A DNA stretch of 64,000 bases from Pseudisothecium myosuroides (lineage: Eukaryota > Streptophyta > Bryopsida > Hypnales > Lembophyllaceae), in the NCBI GenBank assembly GCA_951799445.1, contig OX637297.1, positions 12,586,001 through 12,650,000 of the forward strand, read 5' to 3'. Under the pieces are notes generated by a model. It worked only from the letters and a program-made list of their open reading frames with translations. It searched no databases and had not been told where the DNA came from. The position numbers were made by a program, and so were the translations under genes. Shown in pieces: positions 26,797 to 53,086 of this stretch (positions within the stretch are counted from its first letter, which is position 1; every line of letters starts with the position of its first letter).

Positions 26797-26820
26797 ATGC
26801 CATATTCAACTACTTTTGGA
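26797..26820 (+). repeat. Left TIR of inner transposon
   Basis: Starts ATGCCATATTCAACTAC immediately after CCAAG. Reverse complement of the right ends at 53,063-53,086 and 62,790-62,813, apart from a few substitutions. Confidence 0.9.
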
Positions 26821-26857
26821 ATTTACGGGGAATTCTGGACTTTGTGAAGGTCCTATC

Positions 26858-27100
26858 CATCGGGAGATCTTCCCGATGGTATGTACAATGAGTCCGTAAT
26901 GCCGTTCAAAGGAGATTTAAATCGCTTTGGGATGCTAAGTGGTCTGGAGATTTCCCGATGCAAGAAAATATACTCCTTCGGGATAGAGTGTTCGAACAAA
27001 TCAATGAATTTGAGATGATGTCAACTCCGACATTTGCTATAAGCGGTACATTTGTATCCGGGGTTGCATTAATATGCGACATCACAGATCGGGAGAGCTC
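26858..27100. repeat. Subterminal palindromes, CATCGGGAGATCTTCCCGATG type
   Basis: Near the left TIR a palindrome variant CATCGGGAGATCTTCCCGATG occurs at about 26,859, followed by half-sites TTTCCCGATG (26,950) and ATCGGGAGAGCTC (about 27,088). The core is GGGAGATCTCCC rather than the internal GTGGGATCCCAC. The same variant recurs near the right end (52,390-52,790). Confidence 0.65.
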
Positions 27101-27276
27101 AGAAGATACTTCCCAAAGTATCACATAACACAAAAGAATGGATGAAGCAACATAATGCAATTACAGACATTTGGTAAGGTGTAATCACAGTCAGATAGAA
27201 AAGGTGGATTCGCCACTTATATAATCATTTGGATGCAACAAACAGGTGATAAATAACCTAGCTAGTCCACTTCCAA

Positions 27277-27759
27277 CTACATGTTTTTTGGGGCCCAAGA
27301 CCAATCAAAAGGCGGTGCTATAATGTGCGGACGATCTAACTCTACAGGATCTACATCATCCCGCACATGCAACGCCGGTTGAAGCAAGTGTGGACGTTCC
27401 CAATCAAGAGGATCTAGGACAAGCATTACAATACTGTTTTTCAAGAGTATCCTGCGCGTCCGAGGAATGTTCAAGACAGTCTTCAGTATTGTACGACGAT
27501 GGGGATACACCTGGTTCTTCCGTGGATTGTCAAACCCGGCAAAAAATAGAAACCTTGACAGAATTTCCGGCGGTAGAATATGTCGAAGAAGAGCGGCCAG
27601 TGTTGAAGGTTGCATTGCGGACCACAAACCACAGTGAGTTTCTTGAACGAAATGTCAGTGAAGACCACGGAAGCCGGGCCGAATTTCGATATTCTGTGGG
27701 AGATCCGCCACACCACCCTTCACGCAGAGATCCCCTGTTAGTACTAAGAGCGTCGCCTT
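27277..27759 (-). pseudogene. Exon 7 (last) of inner GGQH gene
   Basis: Follows acceptor GGTCTTTGCAG. One frame reads KATLLVLTGDLCVKGGVADL, a TGA, and then 116 open codons containing LLRHILPPEILSRFLFF and DWERPHLLQPALHVRDDVDP before stopping at 27,277. No family recognised. It lies about 480 bp from the left TIR, so the gene ends near the element end. Confidence 0.45.
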
Positions 27760-27965
27760 CTGCAAAGACCAAGTAAGCCTCAGCACGGAGACATGTACAT
27801 ACAGAAAACGACGTCAATTGATCGTGAGATCCCCCGACCAATATGCAATACAACAGAACCGCTAATTGAAAATACGCATGGGTAGTTATTTGAAGAACAG
27901 CAACTGAATGTCTTATTTGCTGCATAGTGCAAGGAAATTAGCAATTTGGTGTTAAGGATACTTAC

Positions 27966-28954
27966 GCAATTTGGGGTTAATAGGACTGATGCTGGTCGGT
28001 GAGTGTCCCCCAGGGTTAATAAGACGAGGTCCGGTAGCTGTCTATCAGCTCCTGAAGCACGAGATGCCTGTGCATCCTCCTGTTGCGGCTGAGTCGACTT
28101 GTCAGACTTTGACGGTAACGGTCCCAAGGCACAAGTCAGAAGCGTGTCTGCCGCGACTAATGCTTCGGGATTGGGACTCCCAGTCGGCTTCGCTGGCAAC
28201 TGTTTGCGCTGCACCAACAACTTACTTGGAGTCCACTTCGAGGTCTCCCCCTTCCGATTTTTGCTTGCTGTCTTCCGTGCTCGCTTGGCCGCCTTTGTGC
28301 TCCCGGTAACTTCTGCAGTGTCAGGTTCCTTGACCGGCTTCTTACACGGCTTCCTCTTGGATATCCTTGGGTCCGTTAATTGGATCCCTGAATTCACTTC
28401 GCCTGACGACCCGCTCGATATTGGAATTACAATTTCTTCAGCTCGTAACGGCTCTGGAATACTCTCATGCTACTCTGTCAGCTCTTCCAGCTCCGCCTGT
28501 GCCGAATGAACTTCGGGAACTTCGTCAGCATCCTCCGCTGTACTTGGCGGATCAATCAGCTGCTCTCGCCGGGGGGAGGGAGTCGGAGATTTTGCCTGCG
28601 AGAAAGGCAATATCCCACCACATCTGAGCTTAGTTTGCCCTCCCAGATTTGCATGCGAGAGATATACGCTGCCCAACGTCCGGAGATATCACGATGGTTC
28701 AGCAAATAATGCACACTAACCTTAGTGTGCTCAACCGACCTTGTTCCTAAACCCGGTCTGTGTTGGGTGATGTCTTCAACTACAGCAGCTTCATCATCAC
28801 TTTCAACTTCCTCGTCCTCGTGTTCGACCTCCGGAAGAGGAACGGGTGCCGCCTGTGCATGTTTGTTGTCCCAAATCTGCTTGGCGAAGACCTGACTTAA
28901 CGTCTTAGCTTCCGCTGAATCTACAACTTCCAGCACTTTACCACCTTCCGAATA
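27966..28954 (-). pseudogene. Exon 6 of inner gene: acidic then Lys/Ser-rich
   Basis: Starts after GTATTTCAG with YSEGGKVLEVVDSAEAKTLS, then an acidic run (EHEDEEVESDDEAAVVEDI). After a frameshift near 28,600 and a TAG at 28,470-28,472 comes a basic segment with KAAKRARKTASKNRKGE. It ends at donor TGC|GTAAGTATCC (27,965). The composition suggests a disordered nuclear or DNA-binding tail. No outer counterpart survives. Confidence 0.55.
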
Positions 28955-29054
28955 CTGAAATACAACAACCGGAAATTAGTGACATTCAAATCCTCGAAAT
29001 CAAAATTGTGATTATCAGAAGAACAAAAGAAAAGACAATCGTTGTAGTGCATAC

Positions 29055-29711
29055 CAAGCCCAGATATGTGAACTCCGGACCCTCGTTGACATTCACAAAG
29101 ACATAGTCGGTGCAAGCTAGTCCTTCAAATAGAATCAACGCACTGCTGATCTTCAGATACGGCATCTGCTGCCGACGCCAGTAAGGGTAGTCGTTCGGCA
29201 TATCTTCTGCCTTGTACACCTGAGTGAGGCGGTCCAATCCCGGGAAGAAGCTTTTGAAGCAAGTCCGCCGCTCGTGCTCTTCGCTGTGCCCAAAAATGAA
29301 GACAACAAAGATATTGTACCCGTCTCCGGCCGGAGCTTGAGGGAAGAAGTCTTCGGGCCCTGCCATGTAGTTCACAACGTGCCAGTCCCACAACCTAGCT
29401 TTGACTTCCATCCTTCGTTTCTCTATGTGAGCCACAATCATGTGGAACCCTTCAGCATCTGTGAGGAGAACGGCGGCAGAGCGGGCTACGACTGTCTGGT
29501 CCTACGGATCATAGTACTCCAGAGCGTCAAAGAGTCTCTTCAACTTCCGCTCTTCAAGAATTTTGGCGCGACACCCGCAGGACGTTGACTCAAACATGAA
29601 CCAGATGTACAAGTGCTGCTTCTTCTTTCCCCTCCATGCTATGATGTCCCCTGCCGCCAAGGTGGCGCTGATGTCCCAGCTGTTTTCGTCCATGGTTTTA
29701 CAGAGATAGTG
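29055..29711 (-). pseudogene. Exon 5 of inner gene (MDENSW... segment)
   Basis: Contains MDENSWDISATLAAGDI, CRAKILEERKLKRLFDALEY, KARLWDWHVVNYMAGPEDFF and NEGPEFTYLGL before donor TTG|GTATGC. A TAG at 29,502-29,504 replaces a CAG seen in the outer copy, a C-to-T change. The ATG at 29,693 is also a plausible independent start: both copies have a stop codon shortly upstream (TAA here, TAG in the outer copy). The family is unrecognised. Confidence 0.6.
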
Positions 29712-29741
29712 CTCTGAAAAACCACGTGCATTTGCTTACAC

Positions 29742-30413
29742 CGATTCCTCCTCCACTGTCAGCTTGAAATACGACTCCCACATATGGATCACCGACTGTG
29801 GAAGGTCAGCTGGGTCGAACGTCCTGTTGAGATTTCTCGTCCGGTCTTGCAACCACTTCTTTCTAGTAGGGGTTTCCATTGCCTTGTTCACCGATATATC
29901 CACATCCTCGTGCTGAATGTTCCTTTCCGTCGCAAACTCGACCCACAAAGAGTCCGGGTAAGGCTCGTACTCCACCATCCTCACGGGCAGCAGTTGACCC
30001 TTTTAATGAGACAAGAGTTCATTCTTCATCGCCTTGACCAACCAAATTTTGGCGCCGACGTCAACAAGAGAGATTATGCATTTTCCACCTCTCTGCGATT
30101 TCGACTTTGCGACGGAGGTCTTCATGCTGACAACTTGGGCTTCGACTTTATCCGCAAGGAAATTGATGTCCTCCGGTCTAAGTCCGTAAAGGGGCTTGAA
30201 GTCGTTTGCCGCCAACGGTTTGCGATCCGTACTCCCGGATACATCGACCAACCCCGCCGCGTCGGGAAGGAGACCTTCCATGAATTTCTCCTCTATCTTG
30301 ATCCATCTCTGAACATCAGCGTCGTTTTCCAGGAAGAGTAGAGGGATTCTCAGTTCGGCGATGTCTTTTGCCTTTGCTCCCACAAATATTGTTGCCACCG
30401 ACGGCTGAAATGC
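29742..30413 (-). pseudogene. Exon 4 of inner GGQH gene
   Basis: 672 nt in phase 0 with both neighbours. Reads AFQPSVATIFVGAKAKDIAE, IKIEEKFMEGLLPDAAGLVD, LYGLRPEDINFLADKVEAQ, a TAA at 30,003-30,005 where the outer copy has Tyr, then WVEFATERNIQHEDVDISV and LPQSVIHMWESYFKL. Predominantly helical in appearance. No known catalytic motif seen. Confidence 0.6.
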
Positions 30414-30479
30414 CTGCCCAACAAAGGAGTAACAGTCAGTACGCGATTCGTAGACAGACCACGTGAACACAAGAAGTCC

Positions 30480-30810
30480 AATAAACAATCGTGCGATCCC
30501 ACGATCAGTCAGTTACCACAAGGAAGTCGTTTAGGCAACAGGCAGTCGTGAGATATCACGATGAGCTACTATCTTCTACATGCACAATTTGAAAACACCA
30601 CGCACTGAACCCCCAGCACAAAAAACTAAACTAGCGACATTTGGTATTTCATAACTTAACGTCGTGGGATATCACGATCTCCTCATTCTAACGTAGAACT
30701 ACCCCGTATCTCAAAGCCAGGACTTAGGCGCGGGATCCCACGATGACAAGGTTCTAACGTAATGAAGGTCTGAGGTGTAGTGCAGGACCATCGGGAGATC
30801 CCACGATGTT
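30480..30810. repeat. ATCGTGGGATCCCACGAT-type palindromes, inner intron 3
   Basis: Five copies at about 30,488, 30,548, 30,660 (GTCGTGGGATATCACGATC), 30,728 and 30,789. All fall within the 460-bp intron between exons 4 and 3 and none in the exons. Confidence 0.85.
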
Positions 30811-30873
30811 TAGGTAGAGGACACTCTGATGACCTAAAAACATTAAGTTTTCCTACTCCGGCGTCATTCTTAC

Positions 30874-32197
30874 AATGTACTCTTGCGAGTGTGCTCTGCC
30901 CAATAGTACTGGCTGTGGACTGCCCATACTCCGCCACTTGATTCTTGCGTTCAGCAGTTGCTTCGTGAAGTTCTGCTCCTTCTGTTTGCCAACGACATCC
31001 TGGTTCAGCGCTCGCGAGAAGTGCACTAGGTCTCCGTGGTGATCTTTGTCCGTCCACACAGGTAAAATATTAAAGGTGGAGGCTTGCTTCTTGTCCTTCT
31101 CGGGAATCACACCAAGCCTAATCAGGTCCTTGAATGCCTGGACACTGTGTTGGCCCCCTATTATGTAGTAGTGCGTCTTGGGGTTTTCAAAGATCTCCTT
31201 CTTCGGCGCTTGCTTCTCATAGTGTGACACTACCTGCGTCGGGCCGTAGGGTCCCGCTTTAAGAGGAAGCATTGTTATGACTCTGTTCTCCGAGTCATAA
31301 TCAGGTGTGATTTGTGCCTTTCTCGTCAGCGCATCAAGCCGCTCTACCTGAATTCCCCTGTACACAAGTAGTGCTACAGGTGCCTGGTGCAGATAGTCAT
31401 AGTGCACGCGGATGAGCTCTCCTTTGCTGTCACAGATTGGTTTCCTGCCCCATTTGTACAGGCCACCGAAAGAGTTCTCGTACAGGGTCCTCATCGCATT
31501 CATCTCTTCCGGTGTCATCTTCTTCATGTCTGCCTCCCCTAGAGCAACAGCCCTGTGAAGCGGAAGTGGGGTATCCGATTTTTTCTTCTTTCCGGATGTC
31601 CCTGCTGCGGCATCATCTTTGTCCCCGGGAGCTCCAACTGTAGACTTCCTCTTCCTGGTCTTCTTTTTGGGGGACGGCGTGGGAGCAACCACTGTCACGG
31701 CTTCCGGCCGAGCGTTTACATCTCGTAAGTCTTCCATGATTATGTCCCACTGGTTCTTGAGTTCCTTAGGCTTCCACCGAGGCTTAGAGGTGTCTTTGCA
31801 CATCAGATGTGACCTTGCAGTCACAGACTCGCACAGAGTGAGGCTGAACTTTGCATAGTCAAGGATCAACCCAAACGTTATGATCTCCCCGGAAAGAGGA
31901 ACCTTCTCCTCTACAACTAGGAGCGCTGTGTCGTCGTCAAGCCCCTTCATTTCAAGTACCCTCAGTCCGGCAGTTGGGTGCCCCATTGTCCCATTCACCA
32001 GCGTGGGAAGAATAGTGGCAGAGCCGTCACTCTCTGCTTTCCAGGCGATTCCCCAATGTGTAATCTGCTCGTCGCATCGGAAAAAGGCTTGTGGTGGATG
32101 TGGACCTGTGTACTCCAAAGACGTAATGTAGCAGTCGATGAAGGTACCAAGCTTCCTGGGTGTCAGTTCTTCTGGACTTTCAACGACTTGCATTTCA
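30874..32197 (-). CDS. Exon 3 of inner gene, 441 open codons, GGQH motif
   Basis: The longest intact piece of the gene. It begins after acceptor CTGCAG|TGAAATG (EMQVVESPEELTPRKLGTF) and stays open to donor ATT|GTAAGA. Order of recognisable parts: 'FIDCYITSLEYTG'; a domain with 'LVVEEKVPLSGEIITFGLILD'; a Lys-rich linker with two basic clusters (SPKKKTRKRK, SGKKKKSD) that could be nuclear localisation signals; 'LYKWGRKPICDSKGELIRVH'; and YYIIGGQHSVQAFKDL near residue 365. GGQH followed by an Ala two or three residues later recalls the ParB/Srx or DGQHR fold, but this is weak motif evidence. A partner role in transposition is inference from its conserved presence beside the DUF7869 gene. Confidence 0.7.
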
Positions 32198-32289
32198 CTG
32201 CAGCATGGTAGAAAGAGATGTTAGTTTCCACATTGTCCGATAGAGCAGAATGATGGTGGTGCAATATTATTCCCGTTCTAACTTTAATT

Positions 32290-32965
32290 TTTATCCTTAG
32301 TCGTGGGACCCCACGACGGATGTTATGAAAGAGAAGGAATGGTTTCGTGATCATTTTGATGATCTAGTTTCACAAATTACCGTTGTCGTGGGATATCACG
32401 ATCGGTTACATTCACGGATAGTAGTGGGCAGGAGGTTACTGCATCTCAACTCACTAACTGAAGGCGTCCCGGCATATGACGATGGCACCAAATAACATAG
32501 AATGGATATTGGAATATCTTAGAAGGTGATCGGTGATGATCTGTGAAACTACTGTCTGTCGTGGGATCCCACGATTGATTGTTCACATAATCAGCGCTAT
32601 TTGTTAACGCGCCTGCATCTCAATTTCTCTACCCACGCTAGACTTTCTCGTCGTGATTTCCCACGACGGTTTAGTACTTGAATGCTCTATGTAGGTGGTC
32701 TTCTAATTGTTAAGTCTGGGTCAAGCGCGGTCTTTACTATCCTCCATCGGGGGATCCCACGATTGGTTACTAATCCGCTGCCTGGTCTGTGCCTAATATG
32801 TGGTCTGGGTTTAGATTGCGTCTCCACATCTTATCATCGGGGGATCCCACAAACCCTAAAACTCGTGTGGCCGCGCAGTGGTGGGCGGCTAGGGTTTCAA
32901 GTCAGGGATCCTACGATGCTCGAATCTACACAGGGATTGCCCTGTCATGGGATCCCACGATGCAC
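32290..32965. repeat. ATCGTGGGATCCCACGAT-type palindromes, inner intron 2
   Basis: About eight copies at 32,300, 32,384, 32,558, 32,655, 32,745, 32,838, 32,905 and 32,945, in the same order as in the outer copy. All lie inside the 1,022-bp intron 2. Confidence 0.85.
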
Positions 32966-33219
32966 GGTTTTAGGGTCACTATCCCCGGTAACAGGGTCAC
33001 GTATTCAATACCGTGTGTTCTTCTCGGCATATATACTACCGTATTTCTCGGCCATGTTTATAACAGCGACTATGACAGAGGCTCTATTACCCTCATTCTC
33101 AACGGAGTGCGTACAATATAATTGCAAACAACCATACCCTAATTATTAGCAATGTTTGTAACCTAGACATTGCAAGCAAGAAACGGAAAGTAATGAGAAT
33201 ATAGTTCAAAGTAACTTAC

Positions 33220-33347
33220 GGGTCCTTCCAAACTGGGAGGTTTATTGTATGTTGGGATGGACCTACTGCCATCGTAGCTTCCGCTTGCACGGGTCTGACC
33301 TTGTTTTCAGCTACTACAAAAATGCCCTTCCGCTCTTCGAAAGACTG
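33220..33347 (-). CDS. Exon 2 of inner GGQH gene, 128 nt
   Basis: Acceptor TTTCATGCAG|CAG and donor CCC|GTAAGT. Encodes QSFEERKGIFVVAENKVRPV through to VWKDP. It enters in phase 0 from exon 1 (LIQQ|QSFEER) and leaves in phase 2; exon 3 supplies the missing base to give KDPEMQVVES. Confidence 0.65.
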
Positions 33348-33433
33348 CTGCATGAAATTCAAATGCAGTAGAAATTGTAACTTCAATCATCCACTGAGAA
33401 TCACAAACTCCTAACTTGTTTCTTCATGACTAG

Positions 33434-33451
33434 CCAAGTGAATTTAATTGA
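33434..33451 (+). other. Empty target site of the inner transposon
   Basis: Reads CCAAGTGAATTTAATTGA inside intron 1 of the inner element. It is collinear with the outer element's intron after removing 26,797-53,086 and one CAAG, proving where that insertion occurred. Confidence 0.9.
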
Positions 33452-33551
33452 AGAGAAGGTAAACTTAAATCTAAAGTGACGGACTAAATAGCCTATTGCA
33501 CAGAAAACAAGTGTGTTTGATCATAGTCATAAAATCTCTGCACAAACCATG

Positions 33552-36500
33552 TGTCATACGCGCAATCTAGGCGTAAGTATCCTTAACACCAAAAAGATGA
33601 TAAGATAACACGAAATATTGTCCGAGGAGATTCTAGTATGTTTCAGCAAGCTAAGGAGTGTCCGGGTCTTAATCAAAACAACAAAACCCAAGCAGCACCT
33701 CTTTCTTTTCCTATTTCTGACACAATGGTCTTCCGGATCCCAATCCGGATCTATCTCTTTCCGGTTTCCGGTTTGATCCGGATTCCGGGTCTCACTTCTT
33801 AACTTCGACTGGTTTTCTACTCCCCTGTTTTACCCTCAGGGTGTCCGCATTTGATCTTTAGAGGGGTAGGGACGCACCACTCATAGACATCTATTTCTCT
33901 GCACAAAACTTCACACAAAACAATCCTAACCGAGTTTTTATTGTAGGATAGAGAAAGTAATAATCCTCACAATTTCCCGGGTAGCTTGCCCGGAAAACAG
34001 GTCACTCAGAATTGCATCCTTCTGCTTCTACTACAACGACAGATCAAGACAGCCAGAACTAAAAGAGATTCGTGCATCTATCTACCAGACTGATCCTATG
34101 GTTGGCAGACCTTCCGGTGAGTGGGGATTTTCCGCTGGCGGTCGCTTATCTCCGCTCGGAACCCTCTCTGGATTCCGAACTCGCATCCGCACCACTCCTT
34201 AGAACCGGATCACCGTTACAGCAATTTAAAGGTACCACGCTCAAGTCCTTACTCACAAGTCTAGTAAAGTTTCCTCACAAACTTACTCACTCAAATCAGG
34301 TCCAACTAATTTTCAACCCGGATTCCCCCTCACCCGCCCTCTCTCACACTTTTGACACTCCATAAACAACTCAAGAAAACGCACACATAGCCAGAAATCC
34401 GAATGTCCACTTAGTGGCTCAGATTAGAGAAAAAGGAATATGAACATAAACTAATGCACATAAAATGGGCAAGGATGGAATGAGAGGGCAACAAGCTGCC
34501 CTCTACTTAAAAACCCAAACAAAAAGCCAAAAAGGGCACACCTGAAATTCAGGTGACCAATCAGTAACTAACCGCATTATCCGGAAAGTTCAACTACTCC
34601 TAAGAATCCGAAACCGGGCCCCACGCACGGAAAATCCGCTCCAGATTCAAAATCCTAACTACTGCAAACATACTAACTAACTACTTTCCTCGCTTTGATT
34701 TCTTCGCGCTGCTACTCGGCCCTGCAGGTGGTTTCCTGCTTGTTTTCAGTGGAGTGGACTTCGTTGCAGCCCGGGTCGGAATCTTCCGCTGGATCGGCGG
34801 CGGGTCGTCATCCGAAGCCGTCTCATCCCCGGAAGTGAATTCCCCCTTCTCGGACTCCTGGATCATCTCCACTCTGGTCTCTCTCTCGGGTGAATCGTCC
34901 AGCTGAATTGGTGTTGTATTCTTCTTGGGCGATGCCTTCTGCATATGAGGGAAGTCGACCGGATTGGTCCGAGCCGGGTTTGACAAGGCCCCCATCCGGT
35001 GGATTAAATCGCTCCGGACGGATGTTCCGGATGTCGGAACGGTACTCCCTGCTACTACCGGAATCGACTGGATACTCCTCGTATGGCCCAACTTAGTAGC
35101 CTTCATCTGGATCCGTGTCTGACTAGAAGTCGATTTTGGGGATGGCCGTAGAATGATCTCCGGCCCCGGCTTCTGGGGCGTCTTCAACAAGTCGACGTTG
35201 GGCAGCTCCGGAAAGTGGGTGAAGTCCAAGGGCTTGTTTGGGTCGAGGTGCCCCAACAGTTGCGCCATCTCCTTCAAAATTCCTTCCATCCAGGCCTGGA
35301 AGTCCACCAAGATAGTTACCACCTTGGACCCAGATAAGCGGCCTGTGCCACTCAGCTGATTGCTGAAGAATCGAGATTTGATCACAGCTTCCGAGGGCTG
35401 CTCCACCAACGCGGTCAAATTGTGGACGAGTTGGAGAACTTCCGACTCCTTCTGCCGTGCGGCTGCGGCATTCGTCTCCACCCAACTCACCCGACCTAAC
35501 AGGTCATCCCTTTCTTTCTCCACGCTCTTGATCCGCTCGTCCTTCTCACAAAGCAGATCCGGGTTTGGTAGTCGCCGGATCTCCTTTATAATATCTTCCG
35601 GCTCCACCTTCAGCTTCGCAGCAATCCCTAGGATCATATCTGACATCCCGAAATGCATGTGCTTAGCCTCCTCCATCCACTGTGTTCCGACGTCGAAGAA
35701 GTCCGACTGCATTTCCGATCCCGGGGGCTGACTCGGCTCTCCTTTTTCCGGGGTCGACTGTTCCACCCTCGAGTTCGGATTGGTCAACTTCCTTCTCTTC
35801 TCCCTTTTGTCGACCAGGTCCTGCTGCTGCGGTTCTTCTTCCTCGTCTTTGTCTTCATCTTCTTCCTCCTCCTCTCCCTCGATTGGAGTATCCGGTGGAA
35901 TTTTGTGCGTGAGACCATACTTAACTATTTCTAATCCGGTGTTGTAAATCACCACCTCTTCACCAGTCAGCACCTCCTGATGGTGGAATAGGTGAAACAG
36001 ATACGGACTGAGAAGACTCGGCTTCCCCTTCCCTACGTGCGACACCAGTTTCTTCACTATACCTACTAGGACTTTCCCCCAGTGGACTACCTTATCTTCT
36101 AAAGCCCTAAAGATAGTGTTGGCCACCGTAACCGTAACTCGGGTGGGCTTTTCCGGATACAGGATCGGAATTAAAAATTCTAGCATCCGTTTCTGCCTAG
36201 CGTCCTTACAGTCACTCACGGGGTATCCGTCCTTAGTGGTAACCGGATTACGGAACTTTCCTATGCTGTACTTTTCTACCCGAGAATCTAGCCCGGATCC
36301 GTTCTTCTCAAACCCGTATACGTCAACCCATACATCCGCCGTCCATGCTCCGGGTTGGCCATTCACAGTCAACTCAAATTGATTTGGGACCCCTGAGTTC
36401 AGTTGCTCTAGCATCTCCGGGTCCTTCACATTCCATGGCCGGTGGATCAAACCTACGCACCCCATCCGGGTCAGATCTGTCTCTAATTCTTTCCGAAAAG

Positions 36501-37053
36501 TCGGATCGGTGGGAATGGCCGGCCTAACTATCCGAGCTGTGACGGAAGGCCGACGCGCTACCGGGTTGCTAGACTCCGCCATAGTTCACCGACACCGACT
36601 ACTAAATCCGATGCAATCGGCACCGACCTCACCCGTCTCTCCCTGTCGCGATCTCTAACTCACCACTCTTTCACTCAGCTAAGTGCGCAAGACAATCAGC
36701 AAAGTGAAGAATGAGGAAGATTAGGTCTGGCGACGGTTTAAGTACTAGTCGAGCTGCCGACCGTTCCCCTTAGCGAACGGAAAGAGGTCCGTTCCCGTAA
36801 CGGTTCCCTAGCCGCGTAGGTCGGATACCTATTCCGTAGCTTGTTTTGATCCGACCTAACTCGGATTTAAGATCCGTTCCTTCTCCCGGGAGAACCCGTT
36901 TTAATAGATCTGGAACCTCGGAATCTAACTATCCAGAATTTATCTGTATCCGGATCTAGTTTCCTACTTCCTACCAAAATTTTGAAATTTTTGATTAACT
37001 CCTACCCTATTTCTAAGCTACATCTCTCCCTTATGAGTTTCCGTGCTCCCACA
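33552..37053 (-). mobile_element. 3,502-bp LTR-like element A (probable solo LTR)
   Basis: Read on the minus strand it begins TGTGGGAGCACGG (37,053) and ends GCGCGTATGACA (33,552), the TGT...ACA form of LTRs. It is flanked by CCATG at 33,547-33,551 and 37,054-37,058. The outer element at about 53,200 (gcacaaatcatgttccta) is the empty site. A second copy of almost equal length lies at 47,204-50,708. No internal direct repeat was found, so the whole unit behaves like one long LTR left by recombination. It lies in intron 1 of the GGQH gene, in the same orientation as that gene. An AATAAA on its sense strand at 33,937-33,942 would be the poly(A) signal. Confidence 0.8.
34681..36582 (-). CDS. 633-codon protein encoded inside LTR-like element A
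   Basis: An uninterrupted frame starts about 470 bp from the element's 5' end and stops (TAG) about 1.1 kb from its 3' end. Order: an N-terminal ~230-residue domain with 'MGCVGLIHRPWNVKDPEMLE' and LIPILYPEKPTRVTVTVANT; an acidic run (EGEEEEEDEDKDEEEE, near residue 240); 'FGMSDMILGIAAKLKVEPED'; a likely coiled coil (CEKDERIKSVEKERDDLLGR); a helical region; and a disordered Pro/Ser/Thr-rich tail ending KKSKRGK. No Gag zinc knuckle, protease, reverse transcriptase or integrase motif is visible. The copy at 47.7-49.6 kb is broken, so this one is the better representative. Function unknown; the acidic and basic tracts suggest a nuclear protein. Confidence 0.75.
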   Translation of the reverse strand: MAESSNPVARRPSVTARIVRPAIPTDPTFRKELETDLTRMGCVGLIHRPWNVKDPEMLEQLNSGVPNQFELTVNGQPGAWTADVWVDVYGFEKNGSGLDSRVEKYSIGKFRNPVTTKDGYPVSDCKDARQKRMLEFLIPILYPEKPTRVTVTVANTIFRALEDKVVHWGKVLVGIVKKLVSHVGKGKPSLLSPYLFHLFHHQEVLTGEEVVIYNTGLEIVKYGLTHKIPPDTPIEGEEEEEDEDKDEEEEPQQQDLVDKREKRRKLTNPNSRVEQSTPEKGEPSQPPGSEMQSDFFDVGTQWMEEAKHMHFGMSDMILGIAAKLKVEPEDIIKEIRRLPNPDLLCEKDERIKSVEKERDDLLGRVSWVETNAAAARQKESEVLQLVHNLTALVEQPSEAVIKSRFFSNQLSGTGRLSGSKVVTILVDFQAWMEGILKEMAQLLGHLDPNKPLDFTHFPELPNVDLLKTPQKPGPEIILRPSPKSTSSQTRIQMKATKLGHTRSIQSIPVVAGSTVPTSGTSVRSDLIHRMGALSNPARTNPVDFPHMQKASPKKNTTPIQLDDSPERETRVEMIQESEKGEFTSGDETASDDDPPPIQRKIPTRAATKSTPLKTSRKPPAGPSSSAKKSKRGK

Positions 37054-37531
37054 CCATGTTCCTAATATCATTCACAAACGAGTATTGTCTAACTAAATAA
37101 ATATACAATAAACTCTTCGCTCCATTCTTCTTTTGGAGCAACATTCCCATTCCTTACTTCACTTTGCTTCAATTCAAACACTCACAGCAATCCATACACA
37201 TTGAACTCTAGTTCGTGAACTACATCAAGGTTACTTAGCATTTTAGGGTCTACAGTAAATATGAACCGAGAACTACGATGTGTGAGGAGAGCCTACAGCT
37301 GCAAGGAAGGCGAGTGCTAAACATTCATTGTATCCATGTACTAGAATGATGCAATCTACAAGCTTGAATGGGATCATCAATTCTTTCCAAGCCTAGAAGC
37401 TGAAATCCAGAGCAAACGCGTAGCTCCATGCAATCAGAAATCCACAACAAAGAAGTAAATCAACCTCATAGATGGAGTCAGAACTACAAAATCAAAATGC
37501 TGCTTTGGAGGCTTTACTACGACAAACTAAC

Positions 37532-37921: not shown

Positions 37922-38017
37922 GAAAACATCATGAGGAGGACCCTAACCAAGAGGAGAAGAAACCGTCTGCTGACGTGGCGCTGTCAGGTGCAAGACGGCG
38001 GAGGTCATGATTGCCCA

Positions 38018-38050: not shown

Positions 38051-38332
38051 CTTGACTAGAAGTCTTAAGCTAAATAATCACTCATTATACAAAATGCTGA
38101 AATTAGGTCGCACACTTGCACCTCACTAATTTCATGACATTCGATAATTACTACATACATTTTTTCTATTTCTCTATAAGAATGCACAATTCGTTATTTA
38201 AGTATTGTTGCTATTGGAACTCTCAAAACTCCATGTCTACAAATAAAAATAATTGTAGAAACGTTTATTTACTTTGATGGCTTGTAAAGTAACTTTGTTG
38301 AAATAAGGCAACCTAGTTTTACTATTTTAAAT

Positions 38333-39520: not shown

Positions 39521-39530
39521 GCATGAAATT

Positions 39531-41545: not shown

Positions 41546-41909
41546 AATATTATTTAAGCCGTTTCAAGCCATCACGCATTTCATTCTCGATTTTTTTTTT
41601 CACATCGGTGAAGATTGTTCAAATAACAACAACAAATTACAATATTATGTACATCGTTGTCAAATAATGATGTAGATGTATACCACGTTCGATCATTTCA
41701 AAAATCCAGATGAAGATTGCATGACCTACAATATTCTCATGAATGACATGATTCCAGGTTTAAGCATTCATCACCCGTCAAAGTGCATTAACAAATTTGA
41801 AAGCATTTAACTCATTAAATCATTCAGACTGAGATTTAAAATACAAAATAAATAAATGGTTCAGTTTGTTCTTTGTTCCATCATGATTGCACATCCAAAG
41901 TCCTTCACA

Positions 41910-42062
41910 AGGGGCTTTTTTGCGTTTCCCTCTCTCACTTTCCCCTATGTAAACAACAATCTTATGACTTTTCCTTGTGTCAATGGATTGTGACACAAGG
42001 AGAAGTCATGGATTGCCGTTTACGCAGGGAAAAATGAGAGAGGGAAACGCAAAAAAGCCCCT
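41910..42062. mobile_element. 153-bp hairpin MITE
   Basis: Arms AGGGGCTTTTTTGCGTTTCC and GGAAACGCAAAAAAGCCCCT fold back over about 70 bp each, with a short loop near 'tcaatggattg'. No coding capacity. No clear target duplication could be read. Confidence 0.7.
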
Positions 42063-42359
42063 GGTGCTTTATTTAAAAATTTGTAGATGAAATAAAAATT
42101 GTGTTAATCATTGTTTAATCCGTAAAGTCCCATATTAAACCATAGGATGTTGTACTACATAACAAGAATTATATATGAAATCAATCTGTTAACTGACATT
42201 TTTAATTAGCAATATTGAGTTAGATTGAATTTTAAGTTTATATGTTCCTAGTCTGAGATGACGTAAACTTAATTGAGGAAAAAATTGGAAACAAGTAATC
42301 AGCGTCATTTTCATTTTTCATAATTCCCTAAATCTTAAAAGCCGTAAACCATGAACTGC

Positions 42360-42545
42360 AGACCCTGAAAACATTAATGTAAAGCGCTGCCACTGTATAC
42401 CCTAAACCCTATTAAACCCTGAAACCCTGAACCCTGAAACCAAGAACCATGACTTTGAAACCGTGAACACTACACTACAACATGTACCCTAAACCCTATG
42501 ACCGTGGATGGTAGACCCTATGACTGTGGACCCTAGACTCTAAGA
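42360..42545. repeat. Degenerate telomere-like CCCTAAA tract
   Basis: Variants of ACCCTAAACCCT and CCTGAAACCCTGAACC spread over about 185 bp, decaying into 'gaccctatgac'. They resemble the plant-type TTTAGGG telomere repeat but are internal and imperfect. Confidence 0.55.
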
Positions 42546-43880
42546 TTGCATTCATTGGAATAGAAAATAACAAATATGAACATTCGAGAGTTCAAAATTT
42601 TTGTTGATTCTTTTTGTAAGTGAGGTGTTCCACATGTTTCAGGTGCTCAAGTTTTTGGGTTCACGAGATTTTGTACAGTTCATTTCTGTAGGATACGTAT
42701 AATCAGGTCGTGTAGGGGAAGAATTCCGAGTATTGATCGGGGAAGCGTGTGACATTCTGTGAAGTGAAAGTCTTTAGAGTTTGATCCGCTTTGGTCAAAG
42801 CATCATTGACTCCTAGAAAATGGTGCAACGATACCATCCTTGAATGCGGCGAATTTCAAAATGTCAGTGAAGAATCGGAATTTCAATGAAGCCTGGATTT
42901 GCGAAGTTCCAGTCAGAAAGTCAAAAGCCCCACGCCCTCCCTCCTTGTAGTCGGAGATGCACGAAATTCGAGAATGCAATCAACTTCCGAAGTGAAGGAC
43001 CGCACGTACCCCCCAACCGTTGTTGATTGTGGCACGGCATTCAAGAACGCATCCAACATTCGAAATCAAGAATCGCTTGGTGATTTCAAAATTCGCGGCG
43101 GGAATTCAGAGCTAAAGAATTCGAACCAGCCACCTGGTTCATAACCCGAAAAGAACCTGGAGCTTGCTCTTTTCGATTGCACACGTGAACAGGCGGAGCA
43201 GGCTGCGGAGTGGCGAGCGGGTGTCTGCCGGCGTTGGCGACAGAGTGGGCATGGAGGCGCACGAAGTTTTGACCGAGCCAGTTGCTGCAAGGTAAGAATG
43301 CATCCCTTGCAAGTGTTATGCGATTCCGAATGTTGAGGATTCTGTAGTCGAATTGACGCCACTGCACTCTGTCACAAACTGAGGATGTCGTAGATTGAGA
43401 GTGAAACAAAATCTGACTGCAATAATTTTCTTCGCGCATTGGTCTCATTTTGCGAAAAACTCACGTGCTTAAGGGATCACCATGCTGTGGTGACATCGAG
43501 GTTCCTTTTGAATCGCGGGATGGCACTGCCTTGAGGGCAAGTTGATATGAGAACCTTGTACGTGGATGACAACCGGTCAGAACGTCTTCACAAAGTAGTG
43601 AAATTAGGTTGCGTTAGGAATTAGGCGGACTTACATGAGGAAAACCCAGCCATCAAATTCAACTACTTCTAAGAACGTTTCCTATTGTACCCATGGAGGT
43701 TCAGGAGTCTGAATTACAGCAAAATCCACTTTAAAAGTAGAGAATTTTTGTACAGTAACTGAGAATAGTTATAGAGTATCGAATGACATGAAACCAGTGA
43801 CAGGAAACCTAATTTCACGATCTTCTGTAGATACGTCGGTCTACGACACTAGAATTCGTGTATATATCCAACATACGTAA
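42546..43880 (+). other. Presumed promoter/5' region of inner DUF7869 gene
   Basis: GC content rises from about 42,600. A consensus donor TGCAAG|GTAAGAATG occurs at about 43,291, so a 5' untranslated exon joined to the coding exon near 44,700 is possible. No open frame here resembles a known protein. Sequence shared with the outer element begins only at about 43,730. Confidence 0.35.
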
Positions 43881-44585: not shown

Positions 44586-45024
44586 GTCCTTCACGTCGTG
44601 AGGTTACAATGCCATGAATGCAGCGCTCTTCTGTAGACATGCCTAACTCCTTGAATGTATGATGTATAGGTTTTACAGATCGTTTTAATCTCGTCCAAGG
44701 GATTCGACAGAATTCACTCTGACAATGGATTTATTCTGTGAGTCTGCTGCTGACGCGATAGTTCCGTATGTGGACGGAACAAATATAGAGGGTGAATCAC
44801 AGGATTCCACCGGTGGATGTGAAGCGTTTGTGAATGGTGATTGGGTTAAGCTGTTTGTGCCTGGATTCGGTGAAGTTGGATCAGGGATTGTTAAAGAGGT
44901 TCGTCTCCAAGGCTAGTGGCTGGGTGTGCCCATACCTGTTGAGCCTTGGATTTACATTCTGGTGCGACCTCATTCTATCAAATTAGAATTCCAGGATTTG
45001 AAATGCTTTCCCTGTTAGAGGGGT

Positions 45025-45939
45025 ATGAACACATTAGAGGATGTTCAAGAGAATGTAGTGTTGTGGAGAGCCGCCGACGTTGTTAGAGCGTCGGGGGATC
45101 CCCTGATGGATCCATGCCCGTATATTCATCAAGGAGCTTGGTTTGGACTTGATGTGCATCAGAAGGACGGAGGCGGACTCCTTGTTTCCTCGGGTCGTAT
45201 CATTTGTTGGAGGCTGGAGGATCATTTCCAAGAGGAGACACTTGGTGAAGGTTTCATAGGTGTGACAGTCCTCGATGTTTTTGTGGGTGACACCGAAGCC
45301 ATAATGTCTCACGACAGGTGGCCAATTTCGGAGTGTTGGTTTCCCAACGGTCGTTCATTGAAGGAGACAGTGGATCATTTTGCCGCCATTCCCGATATCG
45401 ACGACCCTCTCGCTTACCTCGGAGGTAGAATGAAAGCACCATACCGGTTTATAGTTCGCAAACCCAATCTGGAACTGAAGGAATCGCAGTACTCCTGCAA
45501 AACGGCAGACGAGGAGATTCGGAAAGTCAGCTTGGAGAAGTGCTGCAGACGTCTGTGTTGTCAGCATTATAACCAGGAGTTCACGCTGTTAGTAAGGCAG
45601 AAGTACTACTTGAAGTCGTTTGACGAGCGCCGTGAATATGGGATTGGAGTGGGAGGACAACTACACGAAAGGTACGGGGAGCAGAAGCGGAAATACGTCA
45701 CACTAGAGGGAGTTGATGTTTGTGGCAAGGCGTGGTACATAATTCACGGCATCCCGAAGTCCACTTACCATAGTTACATTGAGATGTACAACGACGGCGT
45801 CGTATCAGGGACGCACGGAAACACAGGGGTTAAGCGCCCGCGGGCTCGGACTGTTCAGGTCGCTGGGACTATGAAAGCCATTATTGACGAGAATGCTGAT
45901 CAAATGCCCCACCAAATGCGCGGCATCGGGAACGGGTGA
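45025..45939 (+). CDS. Longest open part of inner DUF7869 gene, 304 codons
   Basis: Covers the middle N-terminal region from MNTLEDVQENVVLWRAADVV through the Cys-rich segment and the helical GVDVC segment to the HGN loop and 'NADQMPHQMRGIGNG'. The frame really continues upstream: the TAG at 45,016 corresponds to CAG in the outer copy. Downstream the TGA at 45,937 corresponds to CAA. About 90% alike by eye to the outer copy's 344-codon frame at 57,495. Confidence 0.7.
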   Translation: MNTLEDVQENVVLWRAADVVRASGDPLMDPCPYIHQGAWFGLDVHQKDGGGLLVSSGRIICWRLEDHFQEETLGEGFIGVTVLDVFVGDTEAIMSHDRWPISECWFPNGRSLKETVDHFAAIPDIDDPLAYLGGRMKAPYRFIVRKPNLELKESQYSCKTADEEIRKVSLEKCCRRLCCQHYNQEFTLLVRQKYYLKSFDERREYGIGVGGQLHERYGEQKRKYVTLEGVDVCGKAWYIIHGIPKSTYHSYIEMYNDGVVSGTHGNTGVKRPRARTVQVAGTMKAIIDENADQMPHQMRGIGNG

Positions 45940-46005
45940 ACGGACACTCTAAAATTCCTTCCTCCTAGAAGAAATTGGAAACGAGTCCGAGCAGACGCCA
46001 ACGAG

Positions 46006-46170
46006 GTAGTGCCCCTTATCTCCTATCACTGCTTTATTGATCGTGAGATCTCCCAACGAGATCAATGATCATGAGATATCACAATCACTGTTCTAGTGCA
46101 TTGCTTGTCATTTGCATTCCTTCCCCTTTGCTCGTACCGATGCTTAAGCGTACCAATTCTGGATGTGCAG
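46006..46170 (+). other. Intron of inner DUF7869 gene, with palindromes
   Basis: Bounded by AACGAG|GTAGTG and GGATGTGCAG|TTAAAT, phase 0, joining coding segments that align with an uninterrupted frame in copy A. It contains ATCGTGAGATCTCCCAACGA and a nearby ATGAGATATCAC, relatives of the element palindrome. In the outer copy most of the preceding exon tail and the intron start are deleted. Confidence 0.65.
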
Positions 46171-47203
46171 TTAAATGCCGACTACAGTCTGCTGCCCGTG
46201 AGCCAATCGACTATTAGTAGACTCAAGTGGGAGCACTTCAACAACGTCTCCATTAAGCCTGTCGGAAGTTTGTTTGCAAAATGTACTACGTGCGACGACC
46301 TACAGCAGTTTATTCTCAAGTCTCCGAAAGGAAGCCCCGAGTACGTGGAGTTCGTGAAGCAACGGACTCATCATCTGAATCACCAAGCTTCTTGCTGTTG
46401 TTTGTATGCGTCTTGGCGTAAGGAATCCAAACGAGATCCTTGAAGAATTTTATGTATAATTCACGACCAGATGGATACATCTAAGACGGCTCTACCTAGA
46501 CTCCGGGTGACAACAAAGGCCATGGCCGGTTTGGAGCAGCTTTCGATGAGCGTTACTGGAATGGTAGCTCATGGCCATGGTGACGGTGCTTACGCCCATT
46601 ATGCTCCATCTTGCTGGCCGGCGGACTCCAACTTCACCATTTCGTCTTTGGCGAGGTTGTTGTGCCGGTTGGAAGGTCCACCTATTCGAGAGGCAGGCGA
46701 CCTCTTTCCATATCCGCCGGCTAACTCATTGTTCGAGGCACTGCTTAGAGGAAAGTCTAGATGTATGGACAGCCTAACCCTCACCGAACCTAGAGCTCGG
46801 GTCGGAAGTACCCCTCTTTTATAAAATTTATATCTTCAGCTTGACAACTCTACCAAGGATAACAAGAACAAATATCTGATGGCATTCTTATCCTTTCTCA
46901 CTGCACAAGGTGTCTTCAAGGAAATTCAGGTTGGGTTTCTACTAGTCGGACACACTCACGAGGACATCGATGCATATTTCAGCCACCTTTCCAAGGCCCT
47001 GAAGACCAAGAACACTTTTGTCGTCGCTGACCTCATGAAAGCCTTCATGCAGTTCCAAGAATTGTCATTTATGCCGGAGTTCATACAGGAGGTGGGGGAT
47101 TTCAAGTCATTCGTGGAGGGTTACCAATGCGATCGCGGGGAAAAATTAATTGGATTCGGGGAGATGCACCTGTTCAAGTTCTACGTGGACACTGATGGGG
47201 TCC

Positions 47204-50200
47204 TGTGGGAGTACGGAAACTCATAAGGGAGAGGTATAGCATAGAAATAGGTTAGGAGTTAGGCAAAAATTTCAAAATTTTGGTAGAAAGAAGGAAATTA
47301 GATTCGGATACAGATAGATTCCGGATAGTTAGATTCCGAGATTTCAGATCTTGTAAACCGGGTTTTTCCGAGAGCAGGAACGGATCTTGAATCCGAGTTA
47401 GGCCGGATCGGAACGAGCTACGGAATAGGTATCCGACCTACGCCGCTAGGGAACCGTTACGGGAACGGACCTCTTTCCGTTCGCCAAGGGGAACGGTCGA
47501 CAGCTCGACTAGTACTTAAACCCTCGCCAGACCTAATCTTCCTCATTCTTCACTTTGCTGATTGTCTTGCGCACTTAGCTGAGAGAAAGAGTGGTGAGTT
47601 AGAGATCGCGACAGGGAGAGACGGGTGAGGTCGGTGCCGATTGCACCGGATTTAGTAGTCGGTGTTGGTAAACTATGGCGGAGTCCAGCAAACCGGTAGC
47701 GCGCCGACCTTCTGTCACAGCTTGGATAGTTAGACCGGCCATACCCGCCGACCCAACGCACCGGAAGGAGTAAGAGACAGATCTGACCCGGATGGGGTGC
47801 GTAGGTTTGATCCACCGACCGTGGAATCTTAAGAACGCGGAGATGCTGGAGCAGCTGATCTCAGGAGTCCCAAATCAGTTCGAGTTGACTGTGAGAGGCC
47901 AACCTGGAGCATGGACGGCGGATGTATGGGCTGACGTATACGGGTTTGGGAAGGACGGATTCGGATTAGATTCTCGGGTAGAGACGTACGGGATTGGGAA
48001 GTTCCGCAATCCGGTTACCACTAAGGACGGATACCCAGTGAGTGAATTTAAGGACGCTAGGCAGAAACGGGTGTTGGAATTTTTGATTCCAATCATGTAT
48101 CCGGAAAAGCCCACCCGAGTTACGGTTACGGTGGCCAACACTATCTTTGGGGCTTTAGAAGATAAGGTAGTTCACTGGGGGAAAGTCCTAGCCGGGATAG
48201 TAAAGAAGCTCGTGTCACACGTAGGGAAGGGGAAGCCGAGTCTTCTCAGTCCGTACCTGTTTCACCTGTATCACCATCAGGAGGTGCTGACGAGTGAAGA
48301 GATGGTGATTTACAACACCGGATTAGAAATAGTGAAGTATGGCCTCACGCACGAAATTCCACCGGATACTCCAATTGAGGGAGAGGAGGAGGAAGAAGAA
48401 GAAGACGAGGACGAGGAAGAAGAACCACAGCAGCAAGACCTGGTCGACAAGCGGGAGAAGAGAAGGAAGTCGACCAATCCGAACTTGAGGGTGGAACAGT
48501 TGACCCCGGAAAAGGGAGAGCCGAGTCAACCCCCGGAACTGGAACCGCAGTCGGACTTCTTCGACGCCGGAACGTAGTGGATGGAGGAGGCCAAGCACAT
48601 GTATTTCGGGATGTCCGACATGATCCTAGGGATTGCTGCAGAGCTGAAGGTGGAGCCGGAAGATATCATAAATCAGATCCGGAAACTACCGAGCCCGGAT
48701 CTGATTCGTGAGAAGGACGAGCGGATCAAGAGCTTGGAGAAGGAAAGGGATGACCTGTTAGGTCGGGTGAACTGGGCGGAGACGGATGCCGCAGTTGCAC
48801 GGCAGAAGGAGGCGGAAGCTCTCCAACTCGTCCACAATTTGACCACGTTGGTGGAGCAACCCGCGGAAGCTGTGGTCAAATCCCGACTCTTCACCAATCA
48901 GCTGAGTGGCATAGGCCACTTATCCAGGTCCAAGGTGGTAACTATTTTGGTGGACTTCCAGGCCCGGATGGAAGGGATTTTGAAGGAGATGGTGCAACTG
49001 TTGGGGCACCTCGACCTGAACAAGCCCTTGGACTTCACCCACTTTCCGGAGCTGCCCAACGTCGACTTGTTGAAGACGCCCCAGAAGCCGGGGTCAGGGA
49101 TCGGTTTACCGGCATCCCCATGACCTACTCCAGGTCAGGCACGGATCCAGACGAAGACCACTAAGTTTGGCCAGACGAGGAGTGTCCAGTCGATTTCGGT
49201 AGAAGCAGGGAGTTCTGTTCCGGCATCCGGGACATCCGTCCGGAGCGATTTAATCCACCGGATGGGGGCCTTGTCGAATCCGGCTCGGACCAATCCGGTC
49301 GACTTTACTCATATGCAGAAGGCATCGCCCAAGAGGAATACAACACCGATTCAGCTGGATGATTCGCCAGAGAAAGAGACCAGAGTGGAGATGATCCAAG
49401 AGTCCGAGAAGGGGGAATTCACTTCCGGTGATGAGACGGATTCGGATGACGACCCGCCGCCGATCCAGCGGAAGATTCCGACCCGGGCTGCAACGAAGTC
49501 CACTCCACCGAAAGGGAGCAGGAAACCACCTGTAGGGCCAAGTAGCAGCGCGAAGAAATCAAAGCGGGGAAAGTAATTAGTATGTTTGCAGTTTTAGGAT
49601 TTTTAAACTGGAGCGGGTTTTCCGTGCGTGGGGCCCAGTTCCGGATTCTTAGGAGTAGTTGACTTTGAACTTTCCGGATATTACGGTTGATTACTGATTG
49701 GTCACTTGGATTTTCAGGTGTTCTTTTTTTGGCTTTTTGTTTGGGTTTTAAGTGAAAGGGCAGCGTGTTGCCCTTTCATTCCAGCCTTGCCCATTTTGTG
49801 TGCATTAGTTTATATTCATATTCTCTTTTCTCTAATCTGAGCCACTAAGTGGACATTCGGATTTCTGGCTATGTGTGCGTCTTCTTGAGTCGTTTATGAA
49901 TGGTGAAAGTGTGAGAGAGGGCGGATGAGGGGAAATCCGGGTTGAGAATTAGTCGGACCTGTTTTGAGCGAGTAAGTTTGTGAAGAAACTTTACTAGACT
50001 TGTGAGTAAGGACTTGCGCGTGGTACCTTTAAATTGCCGTAACGGTGATCCGGTTCTAAGGAGTGGTGCGGATGCAAGTCCGGAATCCAGGGAGGGTTCT
50101 GAGCGGAGATAAGCGACCGCCAACGGAAAATCCCCACTCACCGAAAGGTCTGCCAACCATAGGATCAGTCTGGTAGATAGATGCACAAATCTCTTTTAGT

Positions 50201-50708
50201 TCCGGCTGTCTTGATCTGTCGTTGTAGTAGAAGCGGAAGGATGCAATCCTGAGTGACCTGTTTTTCGGGCAAGCTACCCGGGGAATCGTGAGGATGAATA
50301 CTTTCTCTATTCTACAATAAAAACTTGGTTAGGATTGTTTTGTGTGAAGTTTTGTGCAAAGAGATAGATGTCTATGAGTGGTGTGTTCCTACCCCTCTAA
50401 AAGATCAAATGCGGACACCCTGAGGGTAAAACAGGGGAATAGAAAACCAGTTGAAGTTGAGAAGTGAAACCCGGAATCCGGATCAACTCGGAAACCGGAA
50501 AGGGGTAGATCCGGATTGGGATCCGGAAGACCATTGTATAAGAAATAGGAAAAGAAAGAGGTGTTGCTTGGGGTTTTGTTGTTTGGATTACAATCCGGAA
50601 ACTCCTTAGCTTGCTGAAACATACTAGAATCTCCTGGGACGATATTTCGTGTTATCTTACCATCATTTTGGTATTAAGGATACTTACGCCTAGATTGCGC
50701 GTACGACG
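47204..50708 (+). mobile_element. 3,505-bp LTR-like element B (probable solo LTR)
   Basis: Begins TGTGGGAGTACGG and ends GCGCGTACGACG (ACA diverged to ACG). It is flanked by GGTCC (47,199-47,203) and AGTCC (50,709-50,713), a 5-bp duplication with one change. The outer gene at about 59,508-59,522 (gatggggtccccgtcgtg) is the empty site. Almost the same length as element A and in opposite orientation in the window. It disrupts the DUF7869 coding region. No repeated terminal sequence within the unit was found, so it is interpreted as a single long LTR. Confidence 0.8.
47675..49576 (+). pseudogene. LTR-encoded 633-codon-type protein, broken copy
   Basis: Homologue of the intact frame at 34,681-36,582. 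ATG at 47,675 is followed by TAA at 47,771 (TTA in the other copy), TAG at 48,575 (CAG in the other copy) and TGA near 49,122. The remaining frames keep MGCVGLIHRPWNLKNAEMLE, the acidic run, FGMSDMILGIAAELKVEPED, the coiled coil and the KKSKRGK end. The similarity over the whole length shows that this coding region is a standard part of the element. Confidence 0.75.
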
Positions 50709-51639
50709 AGTCCCCGTCATGAACTTCAAAAGGTCAGCAGTTGATTCGAACTGGTTGCCGTCAAAGAAACCTTCTGAACGCATTTGGAAGACAGACAGCA
50801 ATGGTCGGCCCATGCTCCCTCACGGCTGTCCAAAGCCTGTTCCATTTAAGCCCATGTGGGGCAGCGAGGTTCCGATACCGAATGGAAATCAAGAGAAGGC
50901 AAGGGAAGCAGCGCGGAAAGCTACCTTGAACAAGAGTTTCATACTGGTAGGACTCGAGAAATACATTCAGTACTGGCAATACGGTATTTCTATATGCGAG
51001 GGATTTGCAACTGCGTTTGGTCCATACGTTTATTACTAGAAGTGTGTTCTCAATGAGCTGAAGGAACCACTACCCGAGTGTCCTCCAGAGTTGGTGGAAG
51101 GCTTCTGGCCACAACACGATTGGAGGGTGGCGCATAATGGAGTCCCTCGCCCAGGATCGACGGTGAATCTCATGGACGTGATTTCGGAGGAAGAAGAGGA
51201 GCCGGAGCCTTACTGCGGCCCTGCATATGAAGCGCCAAGGAAAAGCTTTAATCCATGGCTAGACATACGACCAGGCTGTTGGGTACTTCTCAGACCGGAA
51301 GTCCCGGAATCATGTGCTGTTTGGCAGGGAAGAGCATTGTCTACTGTATGCAGAGTGGAAGGAGATGTGAATAACGGGAAGTTCTTGCTTCAGTACTGGC
51401 GACCCGATAACTCCGAAACGAGACTGGAATTGATTTATTGGAATTATTGGTACGGTAAATGGGTCGTTGAAAAAAGTCCCCCTACCTGGGTGAACGCGGG
51501 TGCTGCAGTGTATGCGAATTGGTCCAGGAGAGTGGATCAAAAATCACGGACAATTCCTCAGAAGAGTAGGGAGGCTGCCTTAGTGAATTTGAATCGGGCA
51601 AACGTGGTAGACCCATGATTGAGTGCCTAGTCCGGGGTC

Positions 51640-52800
51640 GCTACTGCCATCGTGGGAACTCCCGACGCACTGTGTCGGTCGTCGCGGCAATCGTGAGATG
51701 TCACGATGCATTCTGCGGGGCGCGACTGCCATCGTGATATCGCACGATGCATTCTACATCGAGGAAGCGCAGCCGCAAGTGAGGGTTTCGAAGTACAGTC
51801 CATTGAGTCAGTATGACTGTTCTTCGATTAATTTTTCAGAGCTGCTTTTTGTGACATGTATATGTAAAATAAATCTTTATAAATATATTAATATGTTTAT
51901 GATTTCTATTCTTTGCGTGCGGCACGGGGGCAATGACTTGATAGCAGAAGCGCGGGGTGTCTTTCTTCCTCTCGTCTCCTGAAATGGAAGTGGTTTATGT
52001 TTGCGTCTGGAACAGAATACATTGCTCGGGTCATACATGCACTCAAATGAGTCTGAATAATGCATTTCTTTTCTCACAGTTAATCACTGTTGGAATTCTG
52101 GTCTTCTAGGTTTTGCATCTTCACAATTATATAGCGGACAACCAAGTACAAATCTATTTTTTGCAGTGAAAGAACCTTGATGTTCTTTACACAAACTCAA
52201 ACTAATGTCATTATTTCGGATGGAATATTATGTTTACTTAGCCGTTATTCATCTTCAGATGTATGTTGAACGTCTGAGCACCTGTGACTCAGTGGTCTAC
52301 AGTTCTTCAAATGTCACTGTGAGTAAATTACTGTGATATGCCCCTATCACTTCGTCATATCCTGACTACCTTAGCTCCACTATGTTAGTAGTCCGTCGAG
52401 GGATCTCCCGGTGAATCCTAGAACCGGACTCCTTATTCCCAAGAGCAATTGCTCATTTGGTAATTGTCAACTGATGTTTGAATTTCAAATCCACTTATGT
52501 GTACTTCCTTTGAACTCTCGGGATACCATATATCTTTGAAAGAATCGCCCCCCTCGTGCCTTATTGTGAATCATTCTTGATGAACTCGGATATCACTTGC
52601 ACTTTAGTACAGGAATCAAATTGTACCCCACTTCGACACCAAGATTGTCAGTGAAGCCAACTCATATTCTACACCCCCGTCAGGGGATCTCCCGATAGAA
52701 TTATGTGAAGATCAGCGCCCACTGAGGGATTAATATGGGATGGGAGCCATGTTTGCAACGAGTGGTGGTCATCGGGGGATCTCTCGATAGGTTCTGAGAC
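51640..52800. repeat. Palindromes in the 3' region of inner DUF7869 gene
   Basis: Copies just after the stop at 51,650 (ATCGTGGGAACTCCCGACG), 51,689 (ATCGTGAGATGTCACGAT) and 51,729. Toward the TIR come the GGGATCTCCC variants at about 52,396, 52,678 and 52,771. Confidence 0.8.
51868..51873 (+). promoter_or_regulatory. AATAAA poly(A) signal
   Basis: AATAAA about 250 nt after the DUF7869 stop codon, in a T/A-rich context, conserved in the outer copy at 60,675-60,680. Confidence 0.5.
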
Positions 52801-53062
52801 TTTAGTTGTGCTGTAAATTGGATGCCTAAACTACGGAAACCCGGTCCACAGATCTCCCAATACAATCATGTGAACTCTACCACGGATCCGCTATGTTACA
52901 ACTACACGATTTCTTTCATTTCCAAGCACATGAAGCACTCCCCGACATACTTGTGGTAGCTGAATTGGATGCATGCAAAGCGTTCCTATTTCAGGAGATC
53001 TCCAGATCCATAGGAAAACATCAGGGGATTTCACCGCCTCTTTACTTCTGGACGATTGAAAA

Positions 53063-53086
53063 TCCAAAAGTAGTTACATATGGCAT
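53063..53086 (-). repeat. Right TIR of inner transposon
   Basis: Ends ...GTAGTTACATATGGCAT immediately before CAAGTGAACTTAATTG. Inverted relative to 26,797-26,820. Confidence 0.9.

Follow-up and report, generated by a model that had tools for sequence, protein, structure and literature searches.

Sola DNA transposons encode DDD transposases (three catalytic aspartates), produce 4-bp target site duplications (TSDs) and carry terminal inverted repeats (TIRs) of 11–1124 bp. Most are 2–9 kb long, some exceed 15 kb, and they occur in Physcomitrella, according to the available part of their description (PMC10741241). In the same source, PIF/Harbinger elements contain two genes, one for a transposase and one for a Myb-like protein, and duplicate 3 bp (TAA or TTA). 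The available part of a second source (PMC12730594) defines a CMCT clade (EnSpm, Chapaev, Transib, Plavaka, ESTA and Lanisha) by C(2)C and H(3-4)H motifs between the second D and the last E or acidic residue, with 5'-CA..TG-3' termini in most cases and TSDs of 2 to 5 bp. Here we describe a large two-gene transposon in a 64,000-nt stretch of the moss Pseudisothecium myosuroides (OX637297.1 of GCA_951799445.1, positions 12,586,001–12,650,000). This stretch is called the window below, and all coordinates are positions within it. On balance, the locus is best read as a Sola-like DNA transposon of the cut-and-paste kind, about 19 kb long, which landed in an older member of its family and encodes a DUF7869-type DDD transposase together with a ParB-fold accessory protein.

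The self-nested insertion is confirmed, and its ends are exact. From TIR to TIR the inner element occupies 26797–53086 (26,290 bp including later insertions), and its termini read ATGCC...GGCAT. Its 24-bp TIRs, ATGCCATATTCAACTACTTTTGGA at 26797–26820 (plus strand) and ATGCCATATGTAACTACTTTTGGA (reversed) at 53063–53086 (minus strand), ending at 53086, agree at 22 of 24 positions. They are flanked by exact 4-bp copies of CAAG at 26793–26796 and 53087–53090. The equivalent empty site is preserved within the inner copy itself, where junction alignment places CAAG at 33435–33438; the surrounding GACTAGCCAAGTGAAT at 33428–33443 is the expected empty site except that T replaces C directly after GAA. 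When the outer flanks (200 bases from each side) are joined and aligned to this site, 339 of 379 aligned columns are identical and 43 further columns are gapped, none of them at the junction. In a control scan around the inner element, 31 terminus pairs matched at 17 or more of 24 positions, and a 4-bp duplication accompanied just one, the 26797/53086 pair. At least 19 matches were found for seven pairs, five of which are 1- to 4-base shifts of the inner element pair and one of which lies elsewhere.

An assembly error or chance could in principle mimic such a structure, as collapsed repeats can be misjoined and the window also contains a perfect 524-bp inverted repeat. The exact duplication, the TIRs and the gap-free empty site nevertheless make this scarcely conceivable, and the 11% difference between the flanks and the inner copy (40 of 379 columns) shows that the flanks are not a copied piece. 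The nested arrangement thus yields base-exact ends for a large element that would otherwise be hard to delimit. The preliminary description had recognized the self-nested insertion with its internal empty site, the 24-bp TIRs and the CAAG duplication, all of which are borne out here. Its joining point of 33,434 is the base preceding the CAAG of the empty site. The 26-kb element that it proposed keeps its ends, and consists of an element proper of 19,115 bp (about 19.1 kb) plus three later insertions, which add 3507, 3510 and 158 bp including their duplications.

The outer copy is split by the inner one. Its left part (22552–26796) carries gene 2, lacks the left end and is collinear with inner 29337–33438 at 82–86% identity, while its right part (53087–62813) carries the transposase and ends at the right TIR. 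Joined, the two parts align collinearly with inner 29337–53086 at 78–94% identity per block, as the nested structure had predicted, save for inner 38908–43734, which has no collinear counterpart block. The final outer block (62466–62813) corresponds to inner 52725–53086 and stops at the right terminus in both copies. The outer terminus at 62813 differs by three mismatches from the left TIR of the inner copy, and this TIR provides a second confirmation of the right end. For the left end of the outer copy, self-comparison found no match to inner 26797–29336 elsewhere in the window. The two genes that had been proposed could be placed in both copies, where they are divergently oriented.

Gene 1 encodes the transposase and lies on the plus strand. 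Its first part (45025–47203) is broken by a 158-bp insertion and stops, and its last part (50710–51618) follows a 3.5-kb insertion. Both parts are members of a large family. The counterpart in the outer copy is a pseudogene at 57495–60420 (plus strand, end approximate). Relatives were searched with a third copy of the gene in the window (12781–14364) as query (E≤0.001; 7204 candidates), which yielded 205 relatives; the named species among the 120 listed are Physcomitrium patens and Ceratodon purpureus, both mosses, which points to a moss as host. In an alignment of 57 chosen family members (A4), 48 match DUF7869 (PF25273). Counted over non-gap rows, four aspartates are near-invariant: D430 (55/57), D552 (42/43), D592 (41/42) and D594 (42/42), with a spacing of 40 residues between D552 and D592. 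Three of them are the putative catalytic residues of a DDD enzyme. A structural model of the relative P0018, to which the inner transposase is 25–33% identical, contains a strand (514–520) ending at the second D, a helix (529–540), a second strand (546–552) and a helix (559–574) holding the last D. Such an order would be compatible with an RNase H fold, although the local confidence of the model is low here. The element connects a transposase of the DUF7869 type with defined TIRs and a TSD of 4 bp.

The preliminary description found no described superfamily that fits. This is not supported when set against the published traits of Sola, as far as the available part of the description goes: the 4-bp TSD, the 24-bp TIR and the 19.1-kb core all agree, the three aspartates agree by inference, and Sola is also known from a moss (Physcomitrella). 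That part of the Sola description (PMC10741241) says nothing of a second gene with a ParB fold. Two other candidates were rejected. Zisupton (KDZ) would be expected to leave an 8-bp TSD, and the element has one of 4 bp. PIF/Harbinger shares the two-gene layout with one transposase, and differs, on its available description, by its 3-bp TSD and Myb-like protein, where the element has the 4-bp CAAG and a predicted ParB/sulfiredoxin (Srx) fold.

Membership in the CMCT clade appears very improbable. Lanisha has reportedly been described from a moss, and a 4-bp TSD falls within the 2–5 bp given for the clade in the available text. However, the C(2)C and H(3-4)H motifs are missing after the presumed second D: in all four long proteins checked, the sole CxxC precedes the first conserved D (with the D positions assigned by inference), and D552 and D592 are 40 residues apart. 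In addition, the termini ATGCC..GGCAT are not CA..TG. A DUF7869-type superfamily distinct from Sola and from all other described ones seems unlikely, though less so than CMCT membership. It would be consistent with the low identity to P0018, with termini that fit no group in the parts of the descriptions examined, and with the lack of any paper found under the word DUF7869. Against it, every Sola feature readable from the available text agrees, namely the 4-bp TSD, TIR range, size and moss host, together with the inferred three D.

The surprising part of the element is gene 2, which lies on the minus strand. Its exon A (30874–32197) contains the predicted ParB/Srx-fold domain, and its CAG acceptor and GTAAGA donor are kept in both copies; the start of exon B (29060–30413, lower limit approximate) is set by the conserved acceptor TTTGTTGGGCAG. 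Exon A has no in-frame stop in the inner copy and seven in the outer one, and exon B has three in each copy. Residues ~247–402 of exon A are predicted by structure prediction to adopt a fold of the ParB N-terminal domain/sulfiredoxin type, and structural alignments with ParB, Noc, KorB and sulfiredoxin show 10–18% identity. Gene 2 thus shares its predicted fold with these proteins, but it sits in a eukaryotic transposon. Exon A has 31 relatives forming a diverse family, among which a motif IIGGQH-V is near-invariant. The insertion site lies ~1.24 kb upstream of the CAG acceptor of exon A, the first recognisable exon, and its distance to the start of the transposase is 11.6 kb. The conservation of this acceptor in both copies points to an exon further upstream. 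A position in intron 1, as had been proposed, is therefore possible and would assign that intron to gene 2, although the single stretch examined yielded no exon 1.

The ratio of nonsynonymous to synonymous substitution rates (dN/dS) was calculated between the inner and outer copies, leaving out stops and gap codons. In the true frame it is 0.35 for exon A, 0.46 for exon B and 0.44, 0.30 and 0.51 for the three transposase parts. The other frames give 0.71–0.94 for exon A, 0.88–0.99 for exon B, and 0.54–0.70, 0.48–0.95 and 0.56–0.71 for the transposase parts; non-coding controls give 0.65–0.80 in the left half and 0.47–0.59 in the right half. By these ratios, gene 2 and the middle part of the transposase show clear coding constraint, and the signal in the other two parts is not convincing.

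The two halves of the element differ in divergence. Between the inner and outer copies the left half, with gene 2, is 2–4 times more diverged than the right half with the transposase (dS 0.34–0.44 versus 0.11–0.17), and non-coding control regions differ likewise (left ~0.15–0.23, right ~0.04–0.09). This suggests that the copies are mosaics with different left and right histories, perhaps brought about by recombination or conversion between subfamilies, a feature absent from the preliminary description. The far higher divergence of the gene 2 half could also mean that gene 2 plays no working part, being a passenger or left over from a different element, as could the missing gene 2 beside the third transposase copy (considered below). 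This explanation is rather doubtful, as the dN/dS of gene 2 in its true frame lies well under the 0.71–0.99 of the other frames, gene 2 occupies the same place in both copies and its relatives make up a diverse family. In addition, the gene 2 relative P0140 and the transposase relative P0045 share the same longest-contig figure, 635,247, when compared by eye.

Several observations weigh against a Sola-like transposon with a ParB-fold accessory. The duplication evidence comes from a single insertion, so that only one duplication is seen. The Sola placement is drawn from described traits. The P0018 transposase model is poor (predicted local distance difference test, pLDDT, of 59), and no transposase appeared in the best 50 rows of each fold search made with it. 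A plain Foldseek search with gene 2 gave no match at E≤0.001 and no ParB in its best 50 rows. Two transposase parts (0.44 and 0.51) have dN/dS values not or barely below the right-half control and near the lowest wrong-frame values (0.54 and 0.56). Gene 2 is not recognisable near the third transposase copy within 1–22551, and the two-gene layout is therefore shown in one family only.

In the Sola-like reading that we favour, the DUF7869-type DDD transposase would excise the element at its ATGCC...GGCAT ends and reinsert it with a 4-bp stagger. The gene 2 protein, with its predicted ParB/sulfiredoxin fold, would most likely be a DNA-binding or clamp-like helper that assists in handling the distant ends. 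Both copies later decayed through nested insertions and stops. The insertion footprint is directly observed; the roles of both proteins are proposed. Should gene 2 prove functional in the element, a eukaryotic transposon would be making use of a ParB-fold protein, and this bears on the question of how transposases pair very distant ends. A more speculative and clearly improbable extension would be a giant plant transposon lineage, forming a new group within Sola or a superfamily apart from it, in which an accessory ParB-fold protein of prokaryotic origin, acting as a nucleotide-switched clamp or as a nuclease, is needed to pair or protect ends ~20 kb apart. The exact ends allow other copies to be sought by their termini, e.g., ATGCCATATNNAACTACTTTTGGA.

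Both copies are dead. The inner transposase gene is broken by two later insertions, the 158-bp one (including its duplication) at 45964–46116 (limits approximate) and the 3.5-kb insertion B, and by four in-frame stops. Insertion A (33553–37053, minus strand) and insertion B (47204–50709, plus strand, within the transposase gene) are the same unit, 91% identical on opposite strands; neither they nor the 158-bp insertion have a counterpart in the outer copy. Both have TGT..ACA-like ends, with a CCATG duplication around A and a 5-bp duplication with one mismatch (GGTCC/AGTCC) around B, each identified by reading. The unit has a 634-amino acid frame in one copy, split in the other, which matches no Pfam family above cut-off, and self-comparison found no long terminal repeats (LTRs) in it. 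It may be a gene-bearing solo LTR or an element in its own right. The inner element further contains an array of ~11 copies of a ~183-bp tandem repeat (39519–41612), which makes up ~2 kb of its 19,115 bp. A 176-bp array lies in the outer copy at 55645–56121 and shows no match to the ~183-bp array in self-comparison. The stretches 38328–38907 and 55072–55643 are seemingly non-coding and 90% identical between the copies, with a left neighbour at 78%, and part of this stretch is also present in inverted orientation at 39340–39508.

The third DUF7869 transposase copy (12781–16731) belongs to another subfamily and shares 29–46% identity with the inner transposase across the two longest matches; its ends were not found. 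A further relative was observed as an uninterrupted frame of 963 codons (L001:547–3435), with the first Met at codon 17 and a moss-type transposase sequence; its contig is assigned to a cyanobacterial metagenome bin, probably through contamination. The third copy is interrupted by a foldback insertion, a perfect inverted repeat at 14710–15788 with two 524-nt arms and a 31-nt spacer. This repeat may be a foldback element that inserted recently or may have arisen in the assembly, and it is flanked by a possible 4-bp AGTG duplication, as identified by reading.
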